Under the pieces are notes generated by a model. It worked only from the letters and a program-made list of their open reading frames with translations, did not search any database and was not told the origin of the DNA. Below are positions 8,114-50,842 of a stretch of DNA of 64,000 nt, in pieces (position 1 is the stretch's first letter; every line of letters begins with the position of its first letter). The stretch is taken from NCBI GenBank assembly GCA_900320055.1, contig ONQS01000002.1, forward strand, positions 1 to 64,000. Direction: 5' to 3'. Source of the stretch: an uncultured Prevotellaceae bacterium (GTDB lineage Bacteria > Bacteroidota > Bacteroidia > Bacteroidales > Muribaculaceae). A program made the translations under genes and the position numbers.

Positions 8114-8200
8114 GGAGAGGTGGGTGAGTGGCTGAAACCAGCAGTTTGCTAAACTGCCGTAGGGGTAACTCTACCGCAAGTTCGAATCTTGTCCTCTCCG
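8114..8200 (+). tRNA. tRNA-Ser(GCU)
   Basis: An 87-nt class II tRNA. The acceptor GGAGAGG (8114-8120) pairs with CCTCTCC (8193-8199). The anticodon stem GCAGT/ACTGC encloses the loop TTGCTAA with anticodon GCT (8148-8150). A long variable arm and a T-arm containing TTCGAAT are present. CCA is not encoded. The last 14 nt plus one following base form the prophage attachment core, so the tRNA stays intact after integration. Confidence 0.97.
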
Positions 8201-21258: not shown

Positions 21259-22237
21259 AGATGCGCGGTGTTATGGGCACTGTCGTCACTGTACGGAGCG
21301 ACGCGCGGTGCCAGGTGAATGTGAAGGCCGGTAGGTGCCCCTCTTCATCGGTGTGCTTGACCGAAACGTCGTCGATGACGACTGGGTCGGTCACAGCGCC
21401 ATTTTCTATCAGCATAACCTCGGTTGAGCGAGCCAGCGAGCGGAACAGTTCCACCTCACTTGGCCGCAGTGGACCGGTGTTGGACTTCACCGAATCTTCC
21501 TCGCGGATGTCGTAGGTTGTCATAATAGTACCTATGGCAGCCTGCTCTCGAGTAATCTTCTGCGTATGCTCATTCATGCCGGTGAAGTAGGCAGGTTCCC
21601 ACACCGAGAAGTCGTTACGAAACAACAGGCCCAAACGAGTAGCGCAGGTGGGCCGCACGCGGTATAACATGCGTCGGTTACCAGCCTTGACCACATATTG
21701 GACAAGACGGCCCTTACTCTCGTCCACCAGCAGCGATGGCGAGCAGTCCACCTCTTGCAGCGATTGTGCCGGCACACCGGATGCCAGCACAATGTCACCA
21801 GTCGACAGCGTCGTGCCATCAGCATAGACACATGACGCGACAATATCCGCAGATGTATCCAGCAGCGCCGTCACCATTTCGCGACGGTTAAGCGTCGTGG
21901 TGCGCTCGCCCATGACGGGTGACAGGAAATGCCCGGCAACAAAGTCAGCGCCAGACATGGTCTGCTTTGTGCCAGACCTGAGGATAAGAACCCTTTTCGA
22001 GCCCTGCCCAGAGACCGCAAACTCGTACTGCGCCAGCATGTCGCTATCGGATGTTGCCAGTAAACGGTCCAGGTCATACACAGACACCTTGTCGGATATA
22101 GGCGTGTACTTGTTCTGTAGCAGAAGCCCGCTCGCGCTTGCGATGGTCAATGTGATAGGCGATGTTGCGGTAATCTGCAATTCGTCAAACTCTGACGAGA
22201 AGCATACCCATGGCCATGTATTATCATAATTAATCAT
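21227..22237 (-). CDS. Phage structural protein, tail-like, 336 residues
   Basis: A beta-rich protein (ITATSPITLTIASASGLLL, RVLILRSGTKQTMSGADF) without recognised motifs. The C-terminus is rich in Thr and Phe/Asp (FDETFDDTFE). It is the first gene after the operator-controlled promoter at 22375-22382 and a terminator-like hairpin, and leads into the portal-connector-tail operon. A tail-tip or head-decoration role is possible. The start at 22237 gives a leader of about 130 nt. Confidence 0.5.
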   Translation of the reverse strand: MINYDNTWPWVCFSSEFDELQITATSPITLTIASASGLLLQNKYTPISDKVSVYDLDRLLATSDSDMLAQYEFAVSGQGSKRVLILRSGTKQTMSGADFVAGHFLSPVMGERTTTLNRREMVTALLDTSADIVASCVYADGTTLSTGDIVLASGVPAQSLQEVDCSPSLLVDESKGRLVQYVVKAGNRRMLYRVRPTCATRLGLLFRNDFSVWEPAYFTGMNEHTQKITREQAAIGTIMTTYDIREEDSVKSNTGPLRPSEVELFRSLARSTEVMLIENGAVTDPVVIDDVSVKHTDEEGHLPAFTFTWHRASLRTVTTVPITPRIFDETFDDTFE

Positions 22238-22374: not shown

Positions 22375-22416
22375 CAAAGTTACAATATATATTTGGTAAA
22401 CCAAAAATATATTGTA
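22375..22416. promoter_or_regulatory. Operator-promoter element O1 (22.4 kb copy)
   Basis: The minus-strand -7 box TAACTTTG (22375-22382) is followed upstream by an inverted repeat: 22381-22396 pairs with 22401-22416, 15 of 16 bp (TACAATATATATTTGG, 4-nt centre, its complement). The left arm itself holds a plus-strand TATATTTG box. The same arrangement occurs at 28.3 and 49.5 kb, which marks it as a binding site of a phage regulator. Confidence 0.75.
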
Positions 22417-25171: not shown

Positions 25172-25229
25172 CCGAAAATATGCTTTAAAACATATTTTCG
25201 GACATATTAAGCAGATTCAAACCTGCTTA
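25172..25229. repeat. About 58-bp direct repeat, left copy
   Basis: About 90% identical to 28058-28114 in the same orientation. It contains CCGAAAATATG/CATATTTTCGG (11 bp) and TAAGCAG/CTGCTTA (7 bp) hairpins. It follows the stop codon of the 25234 gene, so it probably also ends that transcript. Confidence 0.75.
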
Positions 25230-27064: not shown

Positions 27065-27505
27065 TTATTGAACATAAGACACGGCGGGCCTGTCAATCAT
27101 CTTCAGGCCACAGCCCAGGTCATGGGCAAGGCGTTCCAGCCCTGCATTGATTTTGTCGATCTGTTTCTTTTGGGGTTCACGGATGGATGAAACGTACTGG
27201 CGCAGAATCGACGGATTGATGCCGATATATTTTGCCGTAGCCGTCACGTCGAGCGGATAGTAGTCAAAGAAGGATCCGACGTCCAGGCGGAAGTCGAACT
27301 CAATTTCCTCGGGAAAATCCTTGCCTTCCTCAGCGGCCATTTCTCGGAACTCACGGGCGGCTTCCTTGATGTCCTCCATCGCCTCACGAGCCGAACGGCC
27401 AAAGCCGTTCAGGCCGTAGTTGCCCACGCTCTCAGTAGCGAAGCACGAGAAGTTGCCCTTACCCTTGCCTCGCTCCACAATCGCGAGCAGTGTTAATTTT
27501 TTCAT
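27065..27505 (-). CDS. hicB: HicB-type antitoxin
   Basis: 146 residues. The N-terminal partial RNase-H-like domain (LLAIVERGKGKGNFSCFAT, GFGRSAREAMEDIKEAAREF) is followed by a C-terminal HTH (DVTATAKYIGINPSILRQYV). HicB binds and neutralises HicA and represses the operon. It lies 113 nt after hicA, longer than usual, and the gap begins with a hairpin overlapping the hicA stop codon. Confidence 0.85.
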   Translation of the reverse strand: MKKLTLLAIVERGKGKGNFSCFATESVGNYGLNGFGRSAREAMEDIKEAAREFREMAAEEGKDFPEEIEFDFRLDVGSFFDYYPLDVTATAKYIGINPSILRQYVSSIREPQKKQIDKINAGLERLAHDLGCGLKMIDRPAVSYVQ

Positions 27506-27611
27506 AATGTAACTACAAGTCTTGAAAGGTATGCTAATTATTCTTCATATTCTCTACAAAAAGAGCCCAAAACATGACAGTTCCATGATCAATTTTCGGG
27601 ACAAAAGAGCT

Positions 27612-27630
27612 CTCGGGCTTAAAGCCCGAG
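27612..27630 (-). terminator. Hairpin at the hicA/hicB junction
   Basis: CTCGGGCTT/AAGCCCGAG, 9 bp with one central base, overlapping the hicA stop; on the minus strand AGCTCTTTTGT follows. It could partly terminate or process the message and so set the toxin to antitoxin ratio. Confidence 0.5.
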
Positions 27631-27804
27631 CAACTCTTTCTCAATAGATTTCAGAGTCCCAGGTGGGATCTCCTTGCTTCCATGACGCGGCACTGGCGCC
27701 TTGTTGCCCGTGATGGGGCTGTACCAGATGTCATGCCGTGTCCCGTGCCTGTCAATCGTGCATCCCGCACGGCGCAGGCGTCTAATCAATTCATGGTACC
27801 TCAT
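27619..27804 (-). CDS. hicA: HicA-type mRNA interferase toxin
   Basis: 61 residues starting MRYHELIRRLRRAGC, the standard HicA dsRBD-like fold, with the catalytic His in DRHGTRHDIWYSP and the conserved VPRHGSKEIPPGTLKSI. HicA cleaves mRNA during translation arrest. Start chosen over upstream codons because the -7 box at 27839-27846 would make those leaderless or untranscribed. Part of the cassette framed by the 58-bp repeats. Confidence 0.9.
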   Translation of the reverse strand: MRYHELIRRLRRAGCTIDRHGTRHDIWYSPITGNKAPVPRHGSKEIPPGTLKSIEKELLGL

Positions 27805-27810
27805 AATTTT

Positions 27811-27846
27811 AAAGAGCTCTTTTGTCATATTGACAATGCAAAGGTA
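27811..27846 (-). promoter_or_regulatory. hicAB promoter and palindromic box
   Basis: Minus-strand TACCTTTG at 27839-27846. Just downstream, between the transcription start and the hicA start codon, is the palindrome AAAGAGCTCTTT at 27811-27822, a plausible HicB operator. GAGCTC-containing boxes also occur at 27032-27040 and 27606-27611. Confidence 0.6.
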
Positions 27847-27931
27847 ACACATTTGTTACAACCCACCAAATATTTTCACGAAAAAAATAACAAATAAGTT
27901 ACATTTTTACCGTTTTCAGTAATTATGAGGC

Positions 27932-28057: not shown

Positions 28058-28114
28058 CCGAAATATGCTGTAAAACATGTTTCCGGACACATTAAGCAGA
28101 TTCAAACCAGCTTA
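28058..28114. repeat. About 57-bp direct repeat, right copy
   Basis: Matches 25172-25229 with about six differences, same orientation. Both copies include AAGCAGATTCAAACC. Together they bracket hicAB and the three-gene cassette (about 2.9 kb). Confidence 0.75.
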
Positions 28115-28231: not shown

Positions 28232-28317
28232 CAAAAAAAAAGTGAGCGGGCATCACTGCTGGCTCACCGTGTTGTGCAAACTTTATTAAAATAGTCCTTG
28301 TTATGTTCAACGTGAAA
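28232..28317 (-). ncRNA. Candidate antisense regulatory RNA, about 85 nt
   Basis: It starts about 7 nt past a TACCTTTG box (28324-28331) and ends in a terminator: GTGAGC (28267-28262) pairs with GCTCAC (28247-28242), then nine T. No open frame of note. Its middle is the complement of plus-strand 28278-28295 (AAACTTTATTAAAATAGT), which is identical to 49579-49596 in the repressor mRNA leader; the match continues for four more bases with one G-U pair. It could therefore pair with the repressor message 5-27 nt ahead of its AUG. The plus strand also shows a relic ATGTTCAACG resembling the repressor start, so this may be a recycled immunity-region copy. Confidence 0.55.
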
Positions 28318-28323
28318 GCACTG

Positions 28324-28363
28324 CAAAGGTAACATATATTTTTGGTTTTCCAAATATATTTTG
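28324..28363. promoter_or_regulatory. Operator-promoter element O1 (28.3 kb copy)
   Basis: Minus-strand TACCTTTG (28324-28331) followed by the inverted repeat 28332-28363 (ACATATATTTTTGG, TTTT, CCAAATATATTTTG). The plus strand has TATTTTTG inside the left arm. Spacing between box and repeat equals that at 22.4 and 49.5 kb. Confidence 0.75.
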
Positions 28364-28408: not shown

Positions 28409-28984
28409 TCAGTCTTTCTTGGCTTCACCCGTCTGGGTGATGGCAAGGAAGATACCAGCCACCACGACAGCGCCCATGCTCTCGAGGTATTCAACCATGT
28501 TAGCGAAACTGCTGCCCTTGGTGATCACGTCATCGAAGATGACCACCTTGCGGCCATTGAAGAACTTCGCATCGAATTTGAGGACCGACACCTTGGAGAT
28601 AGACTTGCACACCTTGTGCTCGTGCAGAGCCAGTCGGTTGCCCTCGACCTTGATGTGCTTGAAAGCGTTAGCCATCTTGGTTGCTTTGCAAACCTCACCC
28701 GCGAACTGCTCGTAGCGCATGCAGGTTCTCTCCTGGGTGCTTGCAGGGATGCAGACCAGGGTACAGCCTTCGAGACCGGGCAGGTTCTCATCGAGCGTCT
28801 TGCTGACCCACTGGGCGACCTCGCTAGAGGTGTTCACGTCGCCGTCCTTGAATTTCCAAACCTTCTTGCGGATGCCCCAGGCTTGTCCTGTAGCCTGCAC
28901 CGAGGTAGGGATGTAGGTGAAACGTGCTGCCATGAAAATGTTGTCGTTGTTGACAAATGCTGAAGTGTTGTTGATGCGTACCAT
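28409..28984 (-). CDS. Phosphoribosyltransferase-fold protein
   Basis: 191 residues with the PRPP-binding signature VVIFDDVITKGSSFANMV (two acidic residues followed by TKGSS) near residue 150. The N-terminal part has the ComF/amidophosphoribosyl-like ENLPGLEGCTLVCIPAST with a substrate loop. It may salvage a base for phage DNA synthesis or activate a modified nucleotide. It stands alone with a structured leader of about 165 nt upstream. Confidence 0.85.
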   Translation of the reverse strand: MVRINNTSAFVNNDNIFMAARFTYIPTSVQATGQAWGIRKKVWKFKDGDVNTSSEVAQWVSKTLDENLPGLEGCTLVCIPASTQERTCMRYEQFAGEVCKATKMANAFKHIKVEGNRLALHEHKVCKSISKVSVLKFDAKFFNGRKVVIFDDVITKGSSFANMVEYLESMGAVVVAGIFLAITQTGEAKKD

Positions 28985-49494: not shown

Positions 49495-49563
49495 ATTCTA
49501 AAATTTATTATTAAATTTGGAATGCAAAAGTAAGATATATATTTGGTATCCAAAAATATTTAT
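49495..49563. promoter_or_regulatory. Divergent immunity promoter region with O1 and O2 sites
   Basis: Minus-strand TACTTTTG (49525-49532) drives the early operon. Beside it lies O1: 49535-49546 with 49550-49563 (ATATATATTTGG, TAT, CCAAAAATATTTAT). The plus-strand TATATTTG (49538-49545) inside O1 can drive the repressor. ATTCTAAAATTT at 49495 with AAATTTGGAAT at 49513-49523 forms a degenerate O2. Confidence 0.7.
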
Positions 49564-49605
49564 TTGGTTTTGTGTGTTAAACTTTATTAAAATAGTTCTT
49601 TAATT

Positions 49606-49983
49606 ATGTATAACGGAGAGATAATCAGAGACTTGCTGAAACAGCAAGGAAAGAAGGCCAAAGATTTATTAGCGGCTTTGGAAGTCAATTCTAACGGCTC
49701 AATCAGCCAGTTGGTCAAGGATGCTAATCCGACCGCAAGGAGGTTGGAGATTATCGCAGACTTCCTTGAAGTACCGATTGACGCCTTGTTCCTACGTGAG
49801 CACAACCACAGTGGATACAATGTTGTAGGCAATGGTAACCATGTGGCCAACATCACTATTGGAACGCTCAAGGGCAAACTGCATGATCAGCAGCAGATCA
49901 TAGCGGAAAAAGACAAAAGAATCCAGCTTCTCGAGGAGATGCTGGAGATGTATCGGCAGCGTCTAAGCGAGCAAAAGCCATAG
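49606..49983 (+). CDS. HTH repressor with coiled-coil C-terminus
   Basis: 125 residues. XRE-type HTH at residues 5-65 (LLKQQGKKAKDLLAALEVNS, ISQLVKD, ARRLEIIADFLEVPIDAL). A short linker with GYNVVGNGNHVANITIG, then a heptad-rich helix (KDKRIQLLEEMLEMYRQRL) for dimerisation. It lacks a peptidase domain, so induction is not by RecA-type self-cleavage. It reads away from the early genes and ends near attR: the probable immunity repressor. Its leader (49552-49605) is complementary to the 28.3-kb small RNA. Confidence 0.8.
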   Translation: MYNGEIIRDLLKQQGKKAKDLLAALEVNSNGSISQLVKDANPTARRLEIIADFLEVPIDALFLREHNHSGYNVVGNGNHVANITIGTLKGKLHDQQQIIAEKDKRIQLLEEMLEMYRQRLSEQKP

Positions 49984-50037: not shown

Positions 50038-50053
50038 CAACAATATATTGTTG
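50038..50053. promoter_or_regulatory. 16-bp palindrome beside attR
   Basis: CAACAATATATTGTTG, perfect palindrome, 18 bp before attR. One base different from 37440-37455. It may be an integrase/excisionase arm site or a repressor site that controls the phage end. Confidence 0.5.
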
Positions 50054-50070
50054 GATAACCTACAATATAT

Positions 50071-50320: not shown

Positions 50321-50842
50321 TTATTGCTGCTCATCAAGGTCTTGCAGTCGCTCTATCATCTCGGCGTCTGCTGAATTCCAGTTGCCGGGCTTATAGTTCT
50401 GATAGAGCAGGTATACAGAGGCGACAAGTACGATACCCAACAACACATATTCAAATTCCATGCTGGCAGACTTGAACCATCCGACAGACATCGACAAGAG
50501 ACATACGAGCCAAATGACAAGGGTTAAAAGACTCATGGATCGGCTTTTCTTCTTGTAGTAGTGCAATAAACGATCGGGAGTGTCGGCATCGCCAATTTTG
50601 CTGATGAGCCAACCATTTAACGCAACTATCCACGTAGCGATGCAGCAGAAAACTATAGAGAACGCTAAGCGCACCATATCCTCTTTGCTGCCATCATATT
50701 GGAATATCATCCACACGATCATGAGTATGAGGACTACCATTCCGGCTAATAAGCCGCGACGTGTTCTCGACTTGATCTTGTCCTTGATCTGCTGGAACAA
50801 TTCATCCCTGCCTAGGCAGTTCATTTCTTCAGGTTTCGTCAT
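50321..50842 (-). CDS. Small membrane protein with four helices
   Basis: 173 residues. A charged cytoplasmic N-terminus (FQQIKDKIKSRTRRG), then four hydrophobic helices (GLLAGMVVLILMIVWMIF, AFSIVFCCIATWIVAL, LLTLVIWLVCLLSMSVGWF, YVLLGIVLVASVYLLY) and a short acidic tail (IERLQDLDEQQ). Host gene beyond the prophage. Not a family I can name. Confidence 0.6.
   Translation of the reverse strand: MTKPEEMNCLGRDELFQQIKDKIKSRTRRGLLAGMVVLILMIVWMIFQYDGSKEDMVRLAFSIVFCCIATWIVALNGWLISKIGDADTPDRLLHYYKKKSRSMSLLTLVIWLVCLLSMSVGWFKSASMEFEYVLLGIVLVASVYLLYQNYKPGNWNSADAEMIERLQDLDEQQ

Follow-up and report, generated by a model that had tools for sequence, protein, structure and literature searches.

The sar RNA of phage P22 is encoded opposite the ant region, and the CI RNA of phage P4 and the c4 RNA of phage P1 are part of the leader of their own operon, whose lytic functions they keep off. 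To our knowledge, none of sar, OOP and the P1 and P4 RNAs acts in trans on the start of the maintenance repressor. According to the accessible part of PMC12197685, to which all statements taken from that source refer, sar is a small RNA by which the phage sets the lysis-lysogeny balance through pairing with a translation start; a table lists it as acting in trans, and the lysis-lysogeny antisense RNAs described there act on antirepressors, cII or late genes. In the literature, most subscription journals excepted, we found no antisense RNA against the start of a maintenance repressor and none such in a phage of Bacteroidota. What is new here is a candidate phage antisense RNA directed at the maintenance repressor's own start; antisense control in phages is itself known.

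The RNA proposed here is encoded in a prophage, 21 kb from the repressor gene that it would target. Like sar, it is predicted to pair with a translation start; unlike sar, which represses an antirepressor and supports lysogeny, it has the repressor as its target and would favour lytic growth. Lambda OOP also favours lytic growth by way of a lysogeny-promoting gene (PMC12197685), but OOP is cis-encoded and causes decay of the cII mRNA via RNase III, whereas the start region of the maintenance repressor is far removed from our candidate, which is thus not a cis-antisense RNA of the OOP type. With the c4 RNA of P1 and P7 (PMC12197685) and the CI RNA of P4 it has in common the principle of RNA-based immunity by antisense pairing; unlike these, it has its own promoter and terminator and a distant repressor gene as target, and does not lie in the leader of an operon that it would control. 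The RNA 24B_1 of Phi24B is likewise a phage small RNA that affects repressor activity (PMC12197685), but it is 20 nt long, is proposed to act on an antirepressor gene and to support lysogeny. Finally, prophage NC-SV encodes the small RNA svsR, which is linked to a repressor gene (PMC12803456, accessible part), but it is located at the 3´ end of cI, and its authors report there that they found no complementary target. If our proposal is right, the lysis-lysogeny switch would be one of mutual repression between one protein and one RNA, with the RNA under the operator of that same repressor, and it would offer a handle on this switch in temperate Bacteroidales phages; the natural matched and unmatched pairs of RNA and leader make it directly testable.

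The window, that is, the whole stretch of 64 kb that was analysed, contains a prophage that extends from a tRNA-Ser and an integrase gene (about 8.1-9.5 kb) to about 50 kb, the right end being an estimate. Most prophage genes are read leftward; the repressor gene is read rightward and lies at the right end. The RNA candidate lies in an intergenic stretch of about 556 bases that is flanked by the gene at 28409-28984, for which no Pfam match was found, and by the HicA toxin gene (27619-27852). The following features are relevant:

28409-28984, minus strand: phosphoribosyltransferase-like gene (partial PDB match, E 4.5e-4), synteny marker for the RNA locus in relatives
28324-28331, minus strand: -7 box of the small-RNA promoter, TACCTTTG, read directly (the plus strand reads CAAAGGTA)
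28232-28317, minus strand: small antisense RNA of about 85 nt, start placed from the promoter, expression predicted
28277-28299, minus strand: pairing core of the RNA with 23 contiguous pairs; the wider pairing spans 28270-28318
28233-28268, minus strand: intrinsic terminator of the small RNA, stem GTGAGC/GCTCAC followed by nine T, with two-sided stem changes in relatives
49606-49983, plus strand: phage repressor of 125 aa, the target gene (Pfam HTH_3, 23.7 bits with a cutoff of 23; PHROG 8, transcriptional regulator)
49571-49620, plus strand: predicted target site in the repressor mRNA, comprising leader and start codon (core 49578-49600)

The initial annotation had proposed a leftward promoter with an operator and an RNA of about 85 nt ending in a terminator, and all of these elements are found in the sequence. 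The box TACCTTTG was identified as a -7 box by the Bacteroidota-type promoter consensus, and a TTTG is located 19 bases upstream of it, where the -33 box would stand. An own promoter and an intrinsic terminator, as read from the sequence, are what a trans-encoded small RNA would have. Other identities of the locus were considered and rejected. A small peptide gene is ruled out, since the RNA strand contains no ATG-headed frame in the 91 nt translated. Membership in an Rfam family is ruled out as well, since at gathering score the only match in the window is the tRNA at 8114 and the RNA locus is unmatched. An attenuator for HicA, the next gene downstream, is ruled out because a TTACCTTTG box belonging to that gene stands nearly 400 bases beyond the RNA. 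After the HicA toxin gene (identified by Pfam), in the position of a HicB partner, comes a gene for which no Pfam match was found (27065-27852 for both, inside the prophage).

The 18-mer AAACTTTATTAAAATAGT is present at 28278-28295 and at 49579-49596, as the initial annotation had stated, and with up to four mismatches there is no third copy in the window. For the 75-nt repressor leader the longest exact match elsewhere in the window is these 18 letters, while 500 dinucleotide shuffles of the leader reached a maximum of 16. The initial annotation had placed the pairing 5-27 nt ahead of the AUG; the pairing is present, but its extent was understated. With G-U pairs allowed, 23 contiguous pairs cover leader positions -28 to -6; if small loops and gaps are tolerated as well, the pairing extends from -35 to +15, including the AUG. 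Among the 330 starts of open reading frames of at least 40 aa in the window, each taken at its first ATG, the repressor start ranks first, with 23 pairs against 15 for the next one, and it is also first by hybrid energy.

Searches with the DNA and with the neighbour gene yielded 16 versions of the locus (an identical copy in L020 was left out) from three phage lineages, grouped by the similarity of the neighbour gene:

Lineage A: the window (G000), G075, G058, I32038, L021, L022, L024, L069; neighbour gene 90% or more identical
Lineage B: G070, G004, G072, G098, L025, L026; neighbour gene 77-80% identical
Lineage C: G414, L027; neighbour gene 71-73% identical

I32038 is IMG/VR 3300032038_000550 and G414 is IMG/VR 3300003523_000362. 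Four named relatives are labelled Bacteroidales, Prevotellaceae or Muribaculaceae, one of them with roe deer rumen as source. Of the 15 loci whose neighbour was checked (all but L069), thirteen lie directly 3´ of a gene of the 28409-28984 type; in G072 and G098 the upstream gene is a different one, yet the type of gene downstream of the RNA locus is unchanged. The box TA(C/T)CTTTG is present in 15 of the loci, G058 having TACCTTCG, and the form TA(C/T)CTT(T/C)G in all 16. Both RNA and repressor are available for nine phages: G000, G075, I32038, G058, G070, G004, G072, G098 and G414. In G414 the 40-kb contig has to be read as a circle for the repressor and the RNA locus to stand in their usual order, about 20 kb apart; this points to a genome that is circular or circularly permuted.

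A search of the phages collection with the locus gave no match, and no such RNA was found in the 40 kb examined of G006, whose repressor is 59% identical. No RNA candidate emerged either from nine phages whose repressors are about 40% identical, but most of their stretches are short (5-34 kb), so that its place may be missed. When the DNA downstream of neighbour-gene relatives with less than 43% identity was inspected by eye, nothing comparable was seen in four of five. The fifth, G268 (L107), has the layout of the RNA locus, with a TACCTTTG box after the neighbour gene, then about 70 bases and a hairpin; there is no evident match to the leaders of the two best repressors, both on other contigs.

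The pairing of the terminator stem is kept in lineage A. In an alignment of seven sequences, 98.4% of the cells of the hairpin are paired, compared with 16-47% when the pairing is slid by 1-3 columns, and five of the nine stem pairs have a two-sided change, four of them in G058 alone and the fifth in L024 alone. Seven terminators were folded and are clearly stabler than their shuffles (z -3.6 to -6.1). A terminator-like hairpin that shares the GCAGTGATGC core with the RNA of the window was also seen in L015 (G087).

The promoter of the RNA is overlapped by an operator-like dyad, one of four in the window, where the half-sites were scored (dyads have no strand):

28336-28359: operator-like dyad over the small-RNA promoter, 19 of 20 half-site letters
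49537-49559: operator-like dyad in the divergent control region of the repressor, 19 of 20 half-site letters
22387-22410: operator-like dyad upstream of the structural operon, 19 of 20 half-site letters
50045-50068: weaker operator-like dyad immediately 3´ of the repressor gene, 17 of 20 half-site letters

The initial annotation had claimed a common operator at the RNA promoter and in the repressor region, and the dyads at 28336 and 49537 bear this out. Across lineage A the dyad at the RNA promoter is plainly conserved. In the other phages, all lineages taken together, RNA promoter and repressor region are alike in 15-17 of 20 letters, a comparison of ungapped AT-rich 20-mers made without a chance control. 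The repressor is predicted to bind the dyads. The structural operon downstream of the dyad at 22387 begins at 22237 (minus strand), and through this dyad the late genes may be under direct control of the repressor. The same dyad was observed in G075, L066 and L069.

The initial annotation had made its proposal depend on the complementarity being kept in related prophages, and it is kept in G058 and in the lineages of G070 and G414. In G058 (repressor 51% identical) leader and RNA have both changed, from ...TTATTAAAATAGT to ...TTATTAAATTGTA, and still have 17 identical letters in common. In the lineages of G070 and G414 the RNA follows the neighbour gene, its letters are entirely different, and it matches the repressor start of its own phage: G070 has 18 contiguous pairs, one of them G-U, with a core from -14 to +4 that covers the AUG, and in G414 an interrupted match from -35 to +2 comprises about 33 Watson-Crick pairs plus a single G-U. 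The matches of G004 (16 contiguous pairs, two of them G-U), G072 (19 pairs) and G098 (16 pairs), the latter two with an internal mismatch each, cover the AUG and are modest; that of I32038 is loose, with one G-U and flanking mismatches. In eight alignments the pairing lies over the start codon or, in G058, ends 9 bases ahead of the AUG.

To score the cognate pairs, 1000 dinucleotide shuffles of each RNA were used as null. The cognate score was never reached for G000, G075, I32038, G070, G072 and G414, and was reached by 2 shuffles for G058, 6 for G098 and 20 for G004. When RNAs were assigned to leaders without the near kin of the window (G075 and I32038), the true assignment had the top total among the 5040 that are possible with seven representatives, and it was likewise the best of 120 with five. 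The RNA thus shows complementarity to a distant translation start and coordinated change, as a trans-encoded small RNA would, three of the nine pairs being weak; for the larger part, the maintenance of the complementarity through change can be followed in the sequences themselves.

Several results weaken the case. The own leader was the best of 14 for four of the nine RNAs (G000, G058, G070 and G414). For G075 and I32038 the leader of the closely related window scores higher than the own one; the RNA of G004 scores slightly higher on the G017 leader (33.5, own 32.0), that of G072 on the G033 leader (38.5, own 33.5) and that of G098 on the G036 leader (35.0, own 31.0), for the latter two partly because the pairing reaches conserved first codons. 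The best baseline scores were 27.0-33.5 for nine phages with distant repressors and 35.5 for G006; with a baseline of 27.0-33.5, scores of 31-33.5 alone mean little, and since those of G004, G072 and G098 are within it, these three rest on synteny and the assignment test.

A scan of all promoter-like sites placed the RNA locus at the top in six of the nine phages, each at its better read length (G000, G075, I32038, G070, G414 and G058). In the first three an overlapping upstream site, from which the identical stretch would be read, has an equal score, and in G414 it ranks first at a read length of 110 nt and falls to rank 14 at 70 nt, because the pairing stretch is located at nt 58-94. Elsewhere it ranked 4th of 59 (G004), 2nd of 38 (G072) and 3rd of 47 (G098), unrelated sites reaching 40.5, 35.0 and 47.0, respectively; with a stricter box these ranks were 4th of 48, 2nd of 34 and 2nd of 39, and G058 was missed. 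RNAduplex energies, which over-extend across loops, were reached by 14 (G058), 32 (G070) and 39 (G004) of 1000 shuffles, so that several pairs are not conspicuous by this measure. The longest contiguous run of G414 is not unusual (32 of 1000 shuffles), its match being long but interrupted.

The kind of departures from perfect pairing allows a distinction between RNA pairing and a shared DNA element. In eight pairs (the near-identical G075 was left out), with G-U and A-C departures scored alike, 11 departures are G-U, one is A-C and nine are other mismatches. The one-sided chance of at least 11 of 12 being G-U is 0.003, for pairs that are not fully independent. This excess argues for RNA pairing in the given orientation, since a shared DNA site or a relic should give G-U-like and A-C-like departures equally. 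It would therefore be difficult to reconcile with another DNA operator or with a dead relic left by duplication of the immunity region, where a protein-binding site or an inert copy would stand at both places and no RNA pairing take place. Such an element would explain that the common stretch itself has a weak and partial dyad symmetry (6 of 8 arm positions) and that a true operator-like dyad adjoins it. However, the matched stretch shifts between lineages, from a core of -28 to -6 in the window to -14 to +4 in G070 and -35 to +2 in G414; it is in antisense orientation, with a promoter on one side and on the other a terminator in which two-sided changes keep the stem; and a dead relic would not follow the leader through three lineages. 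We consider this explanation improbable.

A duplication is nevertheless likely as the origin of the RNA. On the plus strand, ATGTTCAACG mirrors the pairing of the RNA with the repressor start, and like ATG runs that resemble this start are found there in G075, L022, L069, I32038 and L024; they are missing from L021 and G058. These runs point to an inverted copy of leader and start and not to a gene, and the RNA probably arose as such a copy of the repressor leader. Of the relic suggested in the initial annotation this origin is retained, while the dead relic is disfavoured. A common leader element of the genus was ruled out for the G058 form of the motif, AACTTTATTAAAWWG, which is distinct from the window's own form and is the one that the search covered: among 101 genomes of the genus it has four occurrences, and the RNA and the leader of G058 account for two of them.

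Taken together, the locus likely encodes a trans-encoded antisense RNA that is off in the lysogen and blocks translation of the repressor during lytic growth. In the lysogen, the repressor would occupy the operator that overlaps the RNA promoter and keep the RNA off. Upon induction, when the repressor is lost, or upon infection, when it has not yet been made, the RNA would be transcribed and pair with leader and start codon of the repressor mRNA, so that no new repressor would be translated. Mutual shut-off of repressor and RNA would render the lytic switch sharp and hard to reverse. Promoter, operator-like dyad, terminator and complementarity are visible in the DNA; expression of the RNA, occupancy of the operator, the translational block and the role in the lytic phase are what we infer from them.

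Pairing could in principle have the opposite effect and stabilise or activate the repressor mRNA, so that the RNA favours lysogeny, as the direction of the effect is unreadable from sequence alone. This is very improbable, since the alignments have the start codon covered or, in G058, the pairing ending 9 bases ahead of it, and the operator-like dyad over the RNA promoter of the window would silence the RNA in the lysogen.

The repressor might not be the only target. The first or second gene after the RNA often has its own TA..TTTG promoter and a repressor-like leader, and these cargo genes differ in kind, encoding an RNase_T/BRCT exonuclease, a HIRAN-domain membrane protein or a lipoprotein-like protein. 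Cargo genes with leaders that match the RNA were noted in L022 (10923), L023 (about 5100), L024 (about 3700), L029 (5853) and L126 (6030). One sequence, GTCAAACTTTATTG, whose letters are particular to L024, stands both in the RNA and in the exonuclease leader of that phage. For seven of 12 neighbour-gene leaders (in I32038, L024, G058, L022, G070, G072 and G098) only 0-2 of 400 shuffles did as well as the RNA, and in G058 the lipoprotein-like gene just downstream ranks first of 241 starts (18 pairs), with the repressor second (17). The main targets of a real RNA could accordingly be adjacent cargo genes or host mRNAs, with the repressor as a side target. We regard this as rather unlikely: the phage of the window has no such cargo gene and only two copies of the motif, the repressor being the outstanding target, and of the 12 leaders, whose windows were all picked by eye, the other five are weak (9-63 of 400 shuffles); four leaders (that of L022, the two of G004 and that of L025) are a better fit to the RNA of a different phage.

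With the repressor as main target, the match of neighbouring cargo leaders means that the regulon of the RNA may be wider. A tentative extension, which we hold to be possible but do not favour, is that the RNA is the hub of a lysogeny shut-off regulon, comprising the repressor and exchangeable cargo genes expressed in the lysogen that have the recognised leader in common. Leader and RNA would then evolve together, and one transcript, set free by a drop in the repressor, would silence both immunity and lysogenic conversion genes.

Two further observations were made in the window. A second repeated non-coding element is present at 28060-28110 and 25175-25225, in two intergenic gaps of one region; both copies contain ATTAAGCAGATTCAAACC, their flanks are alike, and they have inverted repeats. 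Close to the right end of the prophage, 50321-50842 has an AgrB match slightly under the Pfam cutoff (22.3 vs 23 bits).
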